DNA from: a virus
Strand: one strand, 5' to 3'
Virus record (IMG/VR): IMGVR_UViG_3300021364_000083
Span: 1-34,788 of that record
DNA: 34,788 nucleotides
Shown here: in pieces, positions 9,380 through 22,260 of the stretch
Layout of the letters: each line of letters starts with the position of its first letter
Numbering within the stretch: the first letter of the stretch is position 1
Made by a program: the position numbers and the translations under genes
Notes under the pieces: model-generated
Database searches by the model: none
What the model saw: only the letters and a program-made list of their open reading frames with translations
Told to the model about the DNA's origin: nothing

Positions 9380-9943
9380 ATGGCACTTCAAAGTAGCGGA
9401 GCAATTAGTCTCAATGAGATTCATATAGAAGCGGGAGGATCTTCAGGAACTCTTTGCACTATAAATGATTCTGATATTCGTGGACTAATTAGTAAAGGTT
9501 CAGGCGCTACCATGAGCTTTAACGAGTGGTATGGGGCTTCTGCGTGGGATTTGGTATTAAATGGCACAGGAACTTATTTTAGCGAATTTCATCAATATCC
9601 AGGTCTCTCCACAGGAGATCAATTAGTAACGCGAGCTACAGGCAATTCGTCATATCCATATATGGGAATAGTAAGAGAGCCCTCCAACGGAAATAATTAT
9701 TATTTTATGATTCAAAGTGTAAATGTGGCTTCGACTTTGAATTCATATAGTACCTTTCAGCAAAGCTACGATAACAGCACTTGGTACACTAGAACTATAT
9801 CTTCTTGGACTACTTACACGTATGGCACAGGACCTTATGGAAGTGGAGAAGTTATAACTTATGCAACTCCCAGCGGAGTTCCTGGAAGTGTGGGCTCTTA
9901 TACCCACCTCGCTAGTAACTCTTTGTACTATAGATGGACATAA
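9380..9943 (+). CDS. Second tail fibre or virion surface protein
   Basis: This 187-residue protein begins MALQSSGAISLNEIHIEAGG, followed by CTINDSDIRGLI and GATMSFNEWYGAS. That opening module recurs in aquatic phage fibre and structural proteins, often as a particle-attachment region. The remainder is Tyr/Ser/Thr/Trp-rich, as in carbohydrate-binding beta domains (for example SYSTFQQSYDNSTWYTRT). No signal peptide or catalytic residues are evident. It lies between the S74 fibre group and a second assembly chaperone, which fits a receptor-binding role. The function is inferred from the conserved N-terminal motif and context. Confidence 0.7.
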   Translation: MALQSSGAISLNEIHIEAGGSSGTLCTINDSDIRGLISKGSGATMSFNEWYGASAWDLVLNGTGTYFSEFHQYPGLSTGDQLVTRATGNSSYPYMGIVREPSNGNNYYFMIQSVNVASTLNSYSTFQQSYDNSTWYTRTISSWTTYTYGTGPYGSGEVITYATPSGVPGSVGSYTHLASNSLYYRWT

Positions 9944-9945
9944 TT

Positions 9946-10410
9946 ATGAATTATTCTTATGAAATTTTAAAAATTGAACCCCGACACAAGTTTTTAAGTG
10001 TTCGTTATTTTGCAGAAGGAAAGGATAATTATTTTAAAAATTTTAATCCTGAAGATTTTTCCGACACTGCAATTACTACAATGATTGAAAAGTTTTTTCA
10101 TATTGTAAAACAGCACTGGGACTATCAAGCTTCCATAGATGAGACTGCGACTACTTTAGAAGTTGGAAATACTACAGAGGCTGTATATGATGAAGCAGCA
10201 GTTTTAGCGGCAGCTCAGCCTCCAGCGGAAGATCTCCCAATGCTAGTAAGACTAGACAGAGATTACAGACTACAACAAACAGACTGGATGATGTTTTCAG
10301 ATACAGCAACTCCCAGTCAAGCATGGCTAGATTATCGGCAGGCACTTCGGGATGTGCCAAGCCAAGCTGGGTTTCCTGATAATATCACTTGGCACACAAA
10401 ACCGGAGTAA
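9946..10410 (+). CDS. Phage tail assembly chaperone-like protein (copy 2)
   Basis: The last 50 residues repeat the signature seen in the gene at 4962: RLDRDYRLQQTDWMMFSD, then AWLDYRQALRDVP, and a terminal NITWHTKP. This is the Phage_tail_APC-like pattern (TDW..., W..YR.ALRDVP). The N-terminal 100 residues are unrelated to copy 1, which is expected if that part recognises a different fibre. I chose ATG 9946 (154 residues). An in-frame ATG at 9934 would add four residues and overlap the previous gene. It follows the second fibre module, suggesting one dedicated chaperone per module. Confidence 0.75.
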   Translation: MNYSYEILKIEPRHKFLSVRYFAEGKDNYFKNFNPEDFSDTAITTMIEKFFHIVKQHWDYQASIDETATTLEVGNTTEAVYDEAAVLAAAQPPAEDLPMLVRLDRDYRLQQTDWMMFSDTATPSQAWLDYRQALRDVPSQAGFPDNITWHTKPE

Positions 10411-10412
10411 CC

Positions 10413-10613
10413 ATGGAATTTAAATTTCGAAGAGGTAATATCTTTAAAATTGAAAATGGGGTAAGTACTCAAATTACCCGAGAAGAGTATGAAGCTCTTA
10501 AAGGCAAAGAGAATGGCAGCTCGGAAGCGAAGGTCAGTAAAGAAGAAGAGACCAGTACCGACGAACAAGAAATTGTACGCGAGAGTGAAAGCGGAAGCGA
10601 AGAGGAAATTTAA
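10413..10613 (+). CDS. Small protein with basic head and acidic tail
   Basis: ATG 10413 opens a 66-codon frame. A GGAG at 10404-10407 gives a ribosome site at normal distance, so this start is preferred over the TTG at 10389. Residues 1-33 look like a small folded domain (MEFKFRRGNIFKIENG, then ITREEYEALKG). Residues about 34-66 are almost only Glu, Ser, Lys and Thr, and end SESGSEEEI. That acidic tail is encoded in the stretch that also encodes the start of the next gene in another frame. It could be a small virion or regulatory protein. No family is recognised. Confidence 0.55.
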   Translation: MEFKFRRGNIFKIENGVSTQITREEYEALKGKENGSSEAKVSKEEETSTDEQEIVRESESGSEEEI

Positions 10614-10698
10614 AGTATATCCTTCAGCTTACGCAAATGGGTGGCTTGTAAAAACTTACAAGGCACGAGGCGGTAAATACCGCATGGGGAGTAAGTAA
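10513..10698 (+). CDS. Small highly basic protein (61 aa)
   Basis: ATG 10513 gives 61 residues. An upstream in-frame ATG at 10489 would add eight. The protein starts MAARKRRSVKKKRP and continues with YARVKAEAKRKFKVYPSAYA and VKTYKARGGKYRMGSK. The KFKVYPSAYANGW..KTYK.RGGKYR pattern is one I recognise from many aquatic phage genomes, where it has no assigned function. The extreme Lys/Arg content suggests nucleic acid or membrane contact. The first 101 bases overlap the previous gene in a different frame. The stop overlaps the next ATG by one base. Confidence 0.75.
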   Translation: MAARKRRSVKKKRPVPTNKKLYARVKAEAKRKFKVYPSAYANGWLVKTYKARGGKYRMGSK

Positions 10699-10850
10699 TG
10701 CCGGGACATTATGGACATGGTAAAAAGCGTAGCAAGAAAAAGAAGGGCGGTAAAAAGAAGAAGTCTATGGGAGGGTTGACTGCAAAGCAGAAAAAACTTC
10801 CTCCAGCACTTCGTGCAGCAATTATGAAAAAGAAGCGCAGGAAAAAGTAA
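10698..10850 (+). CDS. Tiny highly basic protein (50 aa)
   Basis: A 50-codon frame from ATG 10698 (TAATG overlap with the upstream stop) to TAA 10848-10850. The next ATG follows immediately at 10851. It begins MPGHYGHGKKRSKKKKGG, has a short central segment (MGGLTAKQKKLPPALRAAIM), and ends KKKRRKK. The central LT.KQKKLP.ALR.AI motif is familiar from similar small phage proteins of unknown role. Nearly half the residues are Lys or Arg. Precise packing between two other small genes and the coding-like central motif argue that it is real. Confidence 0.7.
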   Translation: MPGHYGHGKKRSKKKKGGKKKKSMGGLTAKQKKLPPALRAAIMKKKRRKK

Positions 10851-11144
10851 ATGGCACGCAAACCTAGAGGTGGCTTAACCAAATGGTTTAAGGAAAAGTG
10901 GGTAGATATCTCCCGTCCAAAGAAGGGCGGGGGGTATATGCCCTGTGGCCGAAAAACTTCTAAAAAAGGAAAGTATCCTAAATGTGTGCCTGCTTCGAAA
11001 GCTGCTCGTATGACAAAAGCGCAGAAAAGATCTGCCATTCGTCGTAAGAGAGCAGCAGGTAACCCAGGCGGCAAGCCGACTATGGTAAAAACCTTTACCA
11101 AGCGGAAAGCGAGAATGAGACGTGGCAGCAAAAAGAAAAGGTAA
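10851..11144 (+). CDS. Basic aquatic-phage protein with Cys pair
   Basis: This 97-residue protein has a conserved-looking core: LTKWFKEKWVDISRPKKGGG, then MPCGRK, YPKCVPASKAARMTKAQK and RRKRAAGNPGGKPTMVKTF. This arrangement recurs in many aquatic phage and bacterial small proteins (I associate it with a DUF6321-like family, from memory). Two cysteines (in PCGRK and PKCVP) with nearby basic residues could bind a metal, but this is unproven. The C-terminus is a dense Lys/Arg tail. It directly abuts the upstream gene and overlaps the next by 23 bases. The function is unknown. Confidence 0.75.
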   Translation: MARKPRGGLTKWFKEKWVDISRPKKGGGYMPCGRKTSKKGKYPKCVPASKAARMTKAQKRSAIRRKRAAGNPGGKPTMVKTFTKRKARMRRGSKKKR

Positions 11145-11427
11145 AAAGCGAGATCCTCGTTTAAAAAGAGCGGGAGTATCTGGATTTAATAAGCCAAAGA
11201 GGACTCCTGGACATCCAAAAAAGTCACATATTGTTGTGGCAAAAGTTGGAACAAAAGTAAAGACTATTCGATTTGGTCAGCAGGGAGCAAAAACTGCCGG
11301 TAAACCAAAGAAGGGAGAGTCTACAGCAATGAAGAAAAAGCGTGCGTCCTTTAAAGCTCGTCATCGCAGAAACATTGCAAAGGGCAAGATGTCGGCAGCA
11401 TACTGGGCTGACAAGGTGAAGTGGTAA
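11122..11427 (+). CDS. Basic aquatic-phage protein (101 aa)
   Basis: The frame starts with GTG at 11122, inside the previous gene. The nearest ATG upstream (11114) is out of frame. The product runs KRKGKKRDPRLKRAGVSGFN, KPKRTPGHPKKSHIVVAKVG, KVKTIRFGQQGAKTAG, KKKRASFKARHRRNIAKGKM and SAAYWADKVKW. The DPRLKRAGVSGFNKPKRTP and FKARH..NIAKGKMSAAYWA..VKW segments are strongly reminiscent of a widespread aquatic phage family without a known function. It has no membrane span and no cysteine. It is the last of four consecutive very basic proteins before the membrane protein genes. Confidence 0.75.
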   Translation: MAAKRKGKKRDPRLKRAGVSGFNKPKRTPGHPKKSHIVVAKVGTKVKTIRFGQQGAKTAGKPKKGESTAMKKKRASFKARHRRNIAKGKMSAAYWADKVKW

Positions 11428-15235: not shown

Positions 15236-15546
15236 TGGCAGTTCGACAAAAGCAACTTGTGCTGGACACAGCATATAAGCACTTTAAAGAGTTTGAGCTA
15301 CCTCTTGATATTGACTACAAATCATATATGAATATTGTAGGACCGAAAGATGCTATTCACGCTATTTCGGTAAAAAGAAGTTTTAAGGCATGGAAGTTCC
15401 TTACTCATGCACTTAAATTGAAGCACCCCGAATTGGGTAAGAAACCGGAGCCAGCACCTGCTCCGAAACCTGCACCAGAGCCTAAAAAAGATCCACTAGA
15501 AGCTCTGAGCAAGGCTGCTCCGGCAGAAGAAAAGAGTGAAGACTAA
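15235..15546 (+). CDS. Unknown protein between portal and capsid frame
   Basis: This 103-residue protein has an N-terminal helical domain (AYKHFKEFELPLDIDYKSYM, then AISVKRSFKAWKFLTHALKL) and a C-terminal Pro/Ala/Lys/Glu-rich tail beginning at about residue 69 (KKPEPAPAPKPAPEP) that is likely disordered. It has no membrane span or catalytic motif. It overlaps both the portal and the protease-capsid frame by one base, which suggests coupling to head assembly. It could be a decoration, portal-associated or scaffold-assisting protein. No family is recognised. Confidence 0.7.
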   Translation: MAVRQKQLVLDTAYKHFKEFELPLDIDYKSYMNIVGPKDAIHAISVKRSFKAWKFLTHALKLKHPELGKKPEPAPAPKPAPEPKKDPLEALSKAAPAEEKSED

Positions 15547-17555
15547 TGGAAAAGATTTTTAATCTTACCTCCACTTTCAAAGCTCTCGATGAGGATGATG
15601 GAGGAGTTCACATCTGTGGTATGGCGAGTACGAGTGATTTTGATCGTGCTGGTGATACAATTGACGCAGAGGCGTGGACTAAGGGTGGTCTGAACAACTT
15701 TGAAAAGAATCCTATTATTCTTTTTAATCATGACTATAACAAGCCTATTGGACGCGCAACAGGACTTAAAGTCACTGAAAACGGTCTTGAATTAAAGGCG
15801 AAAATTTCTAAATCCGCGCCAGATCATGTCGCGCAACTTGTAAAAGAAGGCATTCTTGGAGCTTTTTCTGTTGGTTTCCGAGTCAAGGATGCTGATTATC
15901 TAACGGAAACCGACGGATTAAAGATTAAGGATGCTGAGTTGTTTGAGGTATCAGTAGTTTCAGTACCATGCAATCAAGCAGCAACTTTTTCTCTGGCGAA
16001 GTCATTTGACTCTATTGAAGAGTACAATGAATTCAAGAAAACTTTCACCAATCGTGTAGATCTAGCCGGTCAGTCTCTGGCTAAGGATGAAAATTCATCG
16101 GTAGCTAGTGAAACACCGGACGAAGCGGAAATTTCCGCGAAAGAGGAGATCAAAATGTCGGAAGAAGTAAAAACTCCCGAAATCGACTTGGAAGCTTTTG
16201 CGAAGAAAGTAGCAGAGGAGACTGCTGCTAAGATCGCTATGAAGCAAGCTGAGTCAAAGGCTGCCGAAGAAAAGGCAGTTCAAGAAGCAGAAGAGAAGGC
16301 AGTTCAAGAAGCTGCTGAAAAAGCTGCTCAAGAAGAAGAAGTCAAAGCCGCTGTAAGCGTTGGTGTTGAGTCAGGTGCTGAGCGCCTGATGGCTGACATC
16401 GAAGCTAAGATGTCTGAGAAAGATGCTAAGATCGACGAAGTAATTCTGTCGTATCAGAAGCAACTGGAAGAGAAGAGCGAAGAAATCACCAAAATGCGTG
16501 AGTCTAAGCGTGTATTCTCTGATCGTTCAGAAGGCGACACCATTTCTAAGTGGGGCAAAGAGTTCATGCACGCTCACCTGCTGGGTGTAATGACTGGTAA
16601 GGGCATGGAAGGCACTTCATATGGTCGCGGTATCATTGAGAAAGCTGGTGTAACTTATTCATCTGCTGCTCCTAACATCGCTACTGAAGTATCTAGCCAA
16701 ATTGAGAAGGAAATCATGCGTGAACTGCGACTGGCTCGTGCGTTCCGTGAGATTCAGATCAATTCTCAAGCTCAAGTACTGCCCATCCAACAGGATACGG
16801 GTCTGGCTACGTTCCAGACTGGTGCAGCTACTTCAGGTAACTTGCAGACTCGAGGCGGCGCTGCTCCTCAGCCTGCTCAGGTAGTCCTGAAGGCTTACCG
16901 ATTGATTTCAACCACGTTGATGGATAACCACGTTGACGAGGAAATCCTGATCAATCTGATGCCTATGCTCGTAGAATCAGTTGCTCGTTCACACGCTCGC
17001 GCTGTAGACGATGCTCTGCTGAACCACGACTCATCTGGTTCTGATGACTTTGACGGTCTGATCAAAACTGCTGGCACTAACATCTTTGATACTTCTGTAT
17101 CTGCCGCTGCTCTGGCTACTACTTCGGTAGACGCTGCTGACTTCCTGTCTGCTCGTAAGCTGATGGGTAAGTATGGCATGATGCCTGATGAGCTGGTATA
17201 CGTTGTATCTCAGAAGCGTTACTACGATCTGATCGCTGATGCCGGCTTTGCCGATATTACCGATGTAGGTTCTGACGTTGCTACCAAGCTGACCGGTCAG
17301 GTAGGTGCGATTTTCGGTACGCCCGTAATCGTATCTGACAACTTCCCCGCGGAAGCTGACAATGCTTGTGTTGGCCTGGCAGTCAACGTTCGTAACTTTG
17401 CTATCCCACGTCTGCGTGGTGTAAATGTTGAGCAAGATTACGAAGTAATGAACCAGCGTAACGTTATCGTTGCTACTCAGTCTCTGGGCTTTAACCAGCT
17501 CGTAGCTGATACTGCAACTGACGTATCTGTAGTTCGACTCAACGCAGTAGCTTAA
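15546..17555 (+). CDS. Fused prohead protease, scaffold-like coil and HK97 major capsid protein
   Basis: This 669-residue frame joins two normally separate head proteins. Residues 1 to about 165 are an S78-type prohead protease: His62 in LFNHDYNKPIG, Ser108 in GAFSVGFRV, and an acidic residue in ELFEVSVVSVPCNQAA (Glu134 is the likely third member). Residues about 204-313 are a long Ala/Glu/Lys coiled coil like a scaffold or delta domain. Residues about 314-669 are an HK97-fold capsid protein, with SSQIEKEIMRELRLARAFRE, GLATFQTGAATSG, LISTTLMDNHVDEEILINLM and a terminal NQRNVIVATQSLGFNQLV. An in-frame ATG at 16155 (Met204) has its own strong ribosome site. Separate scaffold-capsid product from internal initiation is therefore likely. 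Protease cleavage would remove the coil. Confidence 0.9.
   Translation: MEKIFNLTSTFKALDEDDGGVHICGMASTSDFDRAGDTIDAEAWTKGGLNNFEKNPIILFNHDYNKPIGRATGLKVTENGLELKAKISKSAPDHVAQLVKEGILGAFSVGFRVKDADYLTETDGLKIKDAELFEVSVVSVPCNQAATFSLAKSFDSIEEYNEFKKTFTNRVDLAGQSLAKDENSSVASETPDEAEISAKEEIKMSEEVKTPEIDLEAFAKKVAEETAAKIAMKQAESKAAEEKAVQEAEEKAVQEAAEKAAQEEEVKAAVSVGVESGAERLMADIEAKMSEKDAKIDEVILSYQKQLEEKSEEITKMRESKRVFSDRSEGDTISKWGKEFMHAHLLGVMTGKGMEGTSYGRGIIEKAGVTYSSAAPNIATEVSSQIEKEIMRELRLARAFREIQINSQAQVLPIQQDTGLATFQTGAATSGNLQTRGGAAPQPAQVVLKAYRLISTTLMDNHVDEEILINLMPMLVESVARSHARAVDDALLNHDSSGSDDFDGLIKTAGTNIFDTSVSAAALATTSVDAADFLSARKLMGKYGMMPDELVYVVSQKRYYDLIADAGFADITDVGSDVATKLTGQVGAIFGTPVIVSDNFPAEADNACVGLAVNVRNFAIPRLRGVNVEQDYEVMNQRNVIVATQSLGFNQLVADTATDVSVVRLNAVA
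16144..16157 (+). promoter_or_regulatory. Internal ribosome binding site and start in protease-capsid frame
   Basis: AGGAG at 16144-16148 followed by six bases and ATG 16155-16157, in frame with the 669-codon gene at Met204. It is the best ribosome site within the gene, and lies exactly where the protease ends and the scaffold-like coil starts. It would make a 466-residue scaffold-capsid protein without the protease. Codon use changes toward CTG, GCT and CGT from this point on. Confidence 0.7.
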
Positions 17556-21421: not shown

Positions 21422-21844
21422 ATGAGTGATGCCCCCGTTTCTTTAGCGAGTCTAATGACTCCGAGTAAAACAGTATCTATTGATTTTCCCGGATACTCAG
21501 GAATGAAAGTAGATCTTTGTTATCTTGCTCGAGAAGAGCTACTAAAGCTACGCAAGAAATGTGTTTCTACAAAGTTCGATAGAAAAACTCGTCAGCCAGA
21601 AGAAGTTCTTGACGAAGAAAGGTTTCTTATTGAATATTGTGAAGCTGTTATTAAAGGCTGGTCAGGACTAAAGTATCGTTACCTAGAAGAGCTTCTTTTG
21701 GTAGATGTCTCAAGTCTTGACGCCGACGATGAACTAGCTTATACAAAAGATAATGCAGAGTTGCTTATGAGGAACTCTTCAACTTTTGATACATGGGTTA
21801 CTGAAACAGTGGGTGACCTTGAAAATTTTACGAGCAACAAGTAG
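21422..21844 (+). CDS. Tail assembly chaperone, short form (gpG-like)
   Basis: This 140-residue protein occupies the slot of lambda gpG, between the tube and tape measure genes. It starts MSDAPVSLASLMTPSKTVSI, then DLCYLAREELLKLRKKC and DEERFLIEYCEAVIKGWSGL, a helical layout known in this class. The normal stop is TAG 21842-21844. A -1 slippery site lies four codons before it, so a fraction of ribosomes should make the longer form (21422-22260). In lambda the two forms cover the tape measure before tube assembly. The same role is inferred here. Confidence 0.8.
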   Translation: MSDAPVSLASLMTPSKTVSIDFPGYSGMKVDLCYLAREELLKLRKKCVSTKFDRKTRQPEEVLDEERFLIEYCEAVIKGWSGLKYRYLEELLLVDVSSLDADDELAYTKDNAELLMRNSSTFDTWVTETVGDLENFTSNK

Positions 21845-22260
21845 CTGAAGTAGAGAAGCTACTTGAACGATATGTAACTAGTTCTAGTCAGATAGACGTA
21901 GAAAAATATCTACGTATATGTGAACAACTTGGTCAAGAACCTGATCCTGCCAAAATGCCGCTGGACTCTTCGGATTTTCCTGAAGAAGTTCAAGTGGCAT
22001 TTTTTATATTTTCACTTCTGCCTGACTATTGGGAAGGAATGTCAGGAACTTATATGGGCAAAGTATGGGCAGGAGTAGATTATTTATTTAATATTTATGA
22101 GATAGATAATGTAAAAACAATATTCTTTTTTATGAAATTATATGAAGGAATAATAATTAAGCACAGAGCAGAAGAATCAGAACGAAAACGAAAAGCAGAA
22201 GAAAGAAAGTCAAAATCTGCAGGAGGTGGAAAAACATACACCCATAATGTTCGTGGCTAA
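21422..22260 (+). CDS. Tail assembly chaperone, frameshifted long form (gpGT-like)
   Basis: Translation would read 21422-21829, slip back one base, and continue in the -1 frame to the stop at 22258-22260. The product has about 279 residues (136 before the slip, 143 after). The junction reads DLENF then YEQQVAEVEKLLERY. The -1 frame is open from 21823 and reads as natural protein (YLRICEQLGQEPDPA, FPEEVQVAFFIFSLLPDYWE). The ATG at 21955 in that frame has no ribosome site, so independent expression is unlikely. The C-terminal extension ends in a Lys/Glu-rich helix. It would correspond to the lambda T domain that recruits tube subunits to the tape measure. Confidence 0.8.
21823..21865 (+). promoter_or_regulatory. 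-1 programmed frameshift signal: slippery heptamer, spacer, stem-loop
   Basis: The heptamer A AAT TTT (21823-21829, zero-frame phasing) fits X XXY YYZ. Eight bases later a 9-bp perfect stem begins: CAAGTAGCT (21838-21846) pairs with AGCTACTTG (21857-21865) around a 10-base loop. The zero-frame stop TAG (21842-21844) lies within the stem. Spacing, phase and stem size all match known -1 frameshift signals in tail chaperone genes. Confidence 0.85.

Follow-up and report, generated by a model that had tools for sequence, protein, structure and literature searches.

The virus record IMGVR_UViG_3300021364_000083 of IMG/VR, analyzed here over its full length of 34,788 bases (the window), is linear and carries head, tail, and packaging genes. 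The large terminase shares ∼50% identity with the counterparts in Pectobacterium phage My1 and similar phages, and the phages with the gene arrangement described below are uncultured and probably marine. A cassette of small basic genes lies 3′ of a variable tail module and 5′ of a DUF1353 gene and the terminase, and all features discussed in and around it are on the plus strand. The cassette opens with gene A (66 residues; 10413..10613, ATG 10413, TAA 10613), which starts 2 bases past the stop of a Phage_tail_APC gene of the tail fibre assembly type (9934..10410; PF16778, 68 bits). Gene B (61 residues; 10513..10698, ATG 10513, TAA 10698; PF19197, PHROG 27331) starts inside A, and the two share 101 bases (10513..10613) that encode the Lys/Arg arm of B with the first helix of its core in one frame and the acidic tail and stop of A in the other. 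Each gene is preceded by a putative Shine-Dalgarno sequence, GGAG for A (10404..10407, 5 bases before the ATG) and AAAGG for B (10500..10504, within A codons and 8 bases before the ATG). The cassette continues with a small basic gene of 50 residues (10698..10850), for which no PHROG match and no Pfam match above the cut-off was found, and with the basic genes G97 (10851-11144) and G101 (11122-11427; PHROG 7595). These last two overlap by 23 bases (11122..11144) in the same frame as A and B and serve as an internal control, the AAA/AGA codons in their overlap leaving both products basic.

Rfam and tRNA scans of the whole window gave no matches. Elsewhere in the window, an open reading frame of 669 residues (15546-17555) is apparently a fused protease-capsid gene: its translation resembles a prohead protease at the start and an HK97-type major capsid protein at the end. 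The major tail protein and the tape measure are separated by two open reading frames (21422-22260), which occupy the place where lambda has its G/GT tail chaperones and may be joined by a frameshift.

The initial annotation had described the 101-base overlap, with A ending in ESESGSEEEI and B starting with MAARKRRSVKKKRP, and its coordinates, frames, and peptides were all borne out. Codon position 1 of B is codon position 2 of A, and third positions of B are thus first positions of A. An alternative upstream ATG of B at 10489 would give a protein of 69 residues; this start was rejected, being missing in 5 of 11 homologous loci (L082, L087, L091, L092, and L093), whereas the start at 10513 is kept in all 11. 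B therefore has a conserved start of its own, separate from that of A.

Homologues of A were found at six loci in a first scan of IMG/VR and on four more contigs in a second, 10 contigs in all; none were found in phage records or genome contigs, and no PHROG or Pfam family matched above threshold. Such a narrow range and the lack of a family match would fit a reading in which only B is a gene and A is a chance open reading frame in purine-rich DNA, a reading to which we give hardly any credence. Codons 1 to 33 of A (10413..10511), which lie outside the overlap, are conserved as protein: their pN/pS is 0.27 in a set of 9 of the 11 sequences (near-copies L085 and L092 left out), and variable columns at codon positions 1, 2, and 3 number 8, 6, and 17 of 33 each. 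The purine-rich, Shine-Dalgarno-like motifs before A are retained behind upstream genes that differ among the A loci, and the fold of A is predicted with confidence, residues 1 to 33 forming a beta-beta-beta-alpha mini-domain with a pLDDT of ∼90 for residues 1 to 30. The protein-like substitution in this part and the random-coding nulls described below led us to reject the chance origin. Given that the upstream gene differs between A loci, the start of A can be seen as a module edge, a recombination edge beside the tail module.

From residue 31 on, the block mean pLDDT of A is 44 to 55, and the tail (about residues 34 to 66) has no predicted structure. In the model, it is only this disordered tail that overlaps B, and the mini-domain lies outside. 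In fold searches of the PDB, neither A (135 matches with E of ≤10, best 2.1) nor B (2 matches with E of ≤10, best 8.1) had a match with an E value at or below 0.001, and a profile search of PDB sequences returned nothing useful.

B is a basic protein with a DUF5872-type core at about residues 16 to 55 and a Lys/Arg arm. It scores 43.9 bits against PF19197 (DUF5872; gathering cut-off 27.5), covering positions 1 to 39 of a model that is 116 positions long, so that it resembles the N-terminal third and not the full-length domain. The predicted structure has two helices (residues 19 to 32 and 39 to 51) with a mean pLDDT of 84 and a low-confidence arm. At least 537 B-related stretches are present in IMG/VR, and DUF5872 (PF19197) proteins are also listed for an algal giant virus (PMC12085832). 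G97 matches DUF5872 positions 52 to 90, below the cut-off, and B and G97 thus look like a split form of DUF5872. Similar cores were also seen inside long proteins at L038, L040, L066, and L070, and two of these proteins start like a protease.

The overlap of A and B is kept in the window and in all 10 contigs, with a length of 98 to 104 bases, and its length changes in these 11 loci are indels of +3 or −3 that are in frame for both genes. Conservation of both frames among homologues, which had been proposed as a check on the idea of overprinting, was therefore found in 11 of 11 loci. The initial annotation had also named beforehand a second mark of overprinting, a lowered synonymous rate in the overlap, whose absence was to speak against it. 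This was sought and not found, with a B pS of 0.397 in the overlap versus 0.286 in the rest of B, compared to 0.33 to 0.54 in four neighboring genes; the unlowered rate counts against strict double constraint. In the same 9 sequences, pN/pS was 0.82 for A and 0.17 for B within the overlap and 0.06 for the rest of B. Variable columns in the overlap number 22, 6, and 8 at A positions 1, 2, and 3, which places them mainly on third positions of B. Since variation concentrates there and B pS is not lowered, B dictates the residues while those of the A tail drift, and the constraint on the tail is on its composition and openness and not residue by residue.

These substitution data would also be expected if A had passively lost its own stop and now read on to the TAA in the conserved Phe-Lys of B (TTT AAA), the tail being a tolerated by-product with only B under selection. 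The range of tail charge among A loci, from −11 to 0, fits this explanation as well, which we nevertheless consider unlikely. Between 12 and 16% of single B-synonymous changes would introduce a stop into A, and in 20,000 runs of neutral B-synonymous change all seven lineages stayed open in 0.35%. In the same runs, the mean tail charge expected was −5.0, compared to −6.7 observed (P of 0.01). The simulation assumed a majority ancestor and a star phylogeny, so that shared changes are counted more than once and these values are rough; the tails of L082 and L091 (−2 each) lie inside the range that neutral drift would give from an acidic ancestor.

Two contigs carry another small gene, A′ (MEIFEKRGKWCFLE...; FEKRG family), over B. 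Scans with A′ yielded 52 loci and, together with A and the earlier loci, 66 entries, one of them a repeat contig. Of the resulting 65 A/A′ loci, 48 overlap a basic-headed gene by 26 to 134 bases, 37 of these being A′ relatives beyond the 11 A loci, and 17 do not; L117 is counted among the latter despite a 29-base, same-frame overlap with a nonbasic open reading frame. The reading-frame relation is identical in all 48, a statement that covers overlaps of at least 26 bases with a basic-headed gene, as overlaps of 1 to 4 bases use the other frame. Five different genes are overlapped: B, G101, a KGYHRMPNG protein, a short NMNARKR protein, and a basic open reading frame in L118. As far as sequence comparison can tell, the five have no evident likeness to each other and would be unrelated. 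The arrangement thus extends beyond the A/B coordinates at which it was first flagged.

Terminase matches at 78 to 100% identity were obtained in 61 of the 65 loci searched, and the A/A′ contigs make up one phage clade. A terminase (TerL) tree of 60 rows places the A+B phages in one clade (support 99) beside the A′ phages and the A′+G101 phages in two separate clades, and it requires the arrangement to have changed at least 15 times. No relatives of A′ (L113) were found in phage records. The relationship between A and A′ themselves is less clear-cut: their N-terminal parts align with an hhalign E of 0.58, with shuffle p values ranging from 0.001 to 0.90 over 18 pairs, and the profile similarity of the N domain did not place A in the A′ (FEKRG) family. 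The whole-protein match of A and A′ is confined to the overprinted tail. The two share their genomic place, and by eye the A′ sequences suggest the strand and helix order of the A model.

In several A′ proteins (L126, L128, L208, and L216), the tail is preceded by a stretch rich in Cys and acidic residues (type CECEDCDCDPCEC), and for L126 the search gave a subthreshold metallothionein match alone (E of 0.12). At L214 (4349-4621), the core of B is lost and the acidic stretch of A′ is still read over the remaining arm. In L216 to L220, a six-base repeat within the overlap of A′ and the next gene differs in copy number among contigs, extending Glu-Asp in one frame and Thr-Lys in the other at the same time.

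With net charge taken as K+R−D−E, the A tail in the window has −9, the N-terminal part of A has +1, and the first 33 residues of B have +14. We compared this to random synonymous codings of B residues 1 to 33. In 20,000 codings with the codon usage of the window, the A frame was open in 0.6%, with a mean charge of +8; with that of the neighboring basic genes, it was open in 1.6%, with a mean of +5.7, and none of 936 open codings was as acidic as the observed tail. Over seven loci, null codings with neighbor usage were open in 0.65 to 2.9% and had charges of +4 to +6, and the observed tails have −9, −2, −9, −7, −11, −7, and −2. No simulated tail was as low as the observed one in five of these loci, and 1.6% and 3.2% were in L082 and L091, respectively. 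A natural control is given by 63 distinct B genes that have neither A nor A′ upstream; counted from the B start, the same frame is open over at least 95 bases in one and over at least 56 bases in three. The arm of B read in the upstream frame is basic as a rule in these 63 genes, with a median of about +4, versus −3 in 24 overlapped ones. The opposite charge of the two products that had been pointed out initially thus holds in the window but is not fixed in general: once identical loci were removed, the tails of 40 distinct overlapping loci were negative in 29, zero in 4, and positive in 7 (L056, L098, L102, L112, L206, L207, and L118).

The lever by which B could set this charge is the Lys codon. 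Where the preceding codon ends in G, the Lys codon reads as Glu upstream, and where it ends in A, it reads as Lys. The initial proposal that GAAGA-type purine runs encode Glu or Lys/Arg depending on the frame is thus right for AAG, but the relation is not automatic, since AAA runs are Lys in the A frame too. The AAG:AAA ratio is 221:91 (71% AAG) in the overlaps versus 128:198 (39%) beyond them in the same genes, and in each of the 8 groups AAG takes a larger share inside the overlap than beyond it, with only a small shift in L118 and L115/L116. In the 63 B genes without A or A′, the arm (140:206, 0.40) and the rest (113:166, 0.41) are alike. As these counts include related loci, pooled p values overstate the contrast, which we therefore base on its reversal in G101. 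The head of this gene has an AAG:AAA ratio of 14:1 at the 3 loci where an acidic A′ tail overlaps it, 0:23 at the 13 loci where a basic G97 tail does so in the same frame, and 37:72 at the 24 loci with neither. The Lys/Arg codons of B are skewed toward G-ending forms (AAG and AGG) solely within the overlap, so that the upstream frame reads Glu and not Lys, with the same seen at other genes of this phage clade, and the choice among equivalent Lys codons in B seems to set the charge of the A tail. A skew that is limited to overlaps and that turns around in one and the same gene once the upstream tail is basic is not what passive read-through by A would leave behind.

Neither would passive read-through account for the acidic tails of relatives that do not overlap. 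All 15 entries of these A′ proteins that were examined, several of them near-copies, end in 24 residues with a net acidic charge (−4 to −14), and their first 34 residues have −1 to +5. In L128, L129, L215, and L221 to L224, A′ precedes the terminase, and the locus showed no motif of B, G97, or G101; with 7 of the 15 acidic-tailed entries in such loci, the acidic tail does not depend on a basic partner. Acidity is thus a property of A′ itself, which the overlap supplies from the DNA of another gene.

This bears directly on the suggestion that A and B are charge partners. On that account, which is drawn from the sequences, the acidic tail of A would bind the basic arm of B, as a chaperone, an antidote, or a nucleic-acid mimic, and the overlap would ensure matched production. 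The opposite charges in the window and the frequency with which A/A′ loci overlap a basic-headed gene (48 of 65) are in keeping with it. We regard it as rather improbable, as A′ tails are acidic without overlap or basic neighbor, so that binding is not required to explain acidity, A′ overlaps five unrelated basic genes, and 11 of 40 tails are not acidic. Translational coupling as the main cause, in which A would be a leader that opens the ribosome-binding site of B and the tail peptide would be incidental, draws support from the Shine-Dalgarno-like motifs of the downstream gene (GAGGAG or AAAGG) inside A/A′ codons at most listed loci. A few bases of overlap suffice for coupling, however, and it explains neither an AAG skew over 26 to 134 bases nor the acidic tails of the nonoverlapping relatives, making it quite improbable as the main cause.

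Taken together, the observations support overprinting. All 11 loci retain both frames, indels are in frame, B codons are skewed where A overlaps, and the N-terminal part of A has a pN/pS of 0.27; the synonymous rate of B, which is not lowered in the overlap, speaks against it. One frame is widespread (at least 537 stretches for B) and the other restricted (10 contigs for A), but the N-terminal part of A is not overprinted, and acidic tails are already present in A′ relatives without overlap. We think it probable that A and B are real, separately initiated genes that overlap end to start, with B constraining the residues and the tail of A kept open and mostly acidic. The last 33 codons of A would then be the DNA for the basic arm of B and the first helix of its core, read one base earlier. 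Such overlaps may have arisen by rearrangement at the edge of the basic cassette, deleting the DNA between an acidic-tailed and a basic-headed gene, after which the tail would have been selected for openness, disorder, and a mostly acidic charge. Both genes would be translated, and translation of B from an internal ribosome-binding site inside A would couple them. As to the role of A, our guess would be a small acidic-tailed binding or chaperone-type protein, a helper made together with the basic cassette proteins. A broader idea, which we put forward tentatively, is that in this phage clade the synonymous third bases in the head of a basic gene act as a charge dial for the upstream tail (AAG/AGG acidic, AAA/AGA basic). 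Small acidic-tailed genes would have repeatedly moved onto whichever basic-headed gene comes next, the Lys-to-Glu relation between the frames taking the place of their own tail DNA, and their acidic product may serve the basic cassette proteins.

Overlapping genes are usually framed as a conflict, with one frame dictating to the other. In the present case, Lys/Arg in one frame and Glu in the other are needs made compatible by a property of the genetic code. The overlaps recur on unrelated genes, and codon choice turns around where a basic upstream tail is called for, which amounts to a natural experiment. It makes testable how far a second frame sets synonymous sites and whether gene compaction readily yields disordered charged tails.

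Short ATGA/TAATG overlaps, in which an upstream stop and a downstream start overlap and give coupling, are familiar from phage gene pairs. They span 1 to 4 bases and use the other frame (here in L126, L208, L212, and L213), in contrast to the 26 to 134 bases of the A/A′ overlaps. Searches of an open-access library listed no case of acidic/basic overlapping frames or of acidic tails in phage gene overlaps. The closest parallel is viral terminal gene overlap by overprinting, such as phiX174 A/K, in which the 3′ end of one gene and the 5′ start of the next likewise share DNA in two frames and the overlapped part of one product is likewise predicted to be disordered (PMC8227390). De novo proteins are described there as depleted in acidic residues in the +1 frame and enriched in basic residues in the +2 frame. 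The added frame of A, unlike the de novo proteins covered there, is acidic over a basic one, and it recurs over five seemingly unrelated genes with matching codon choice. Terminal gene overlap is thus the known kind to which A and B belong, and the recurring acidic/basic charge relation is what sets them apart.
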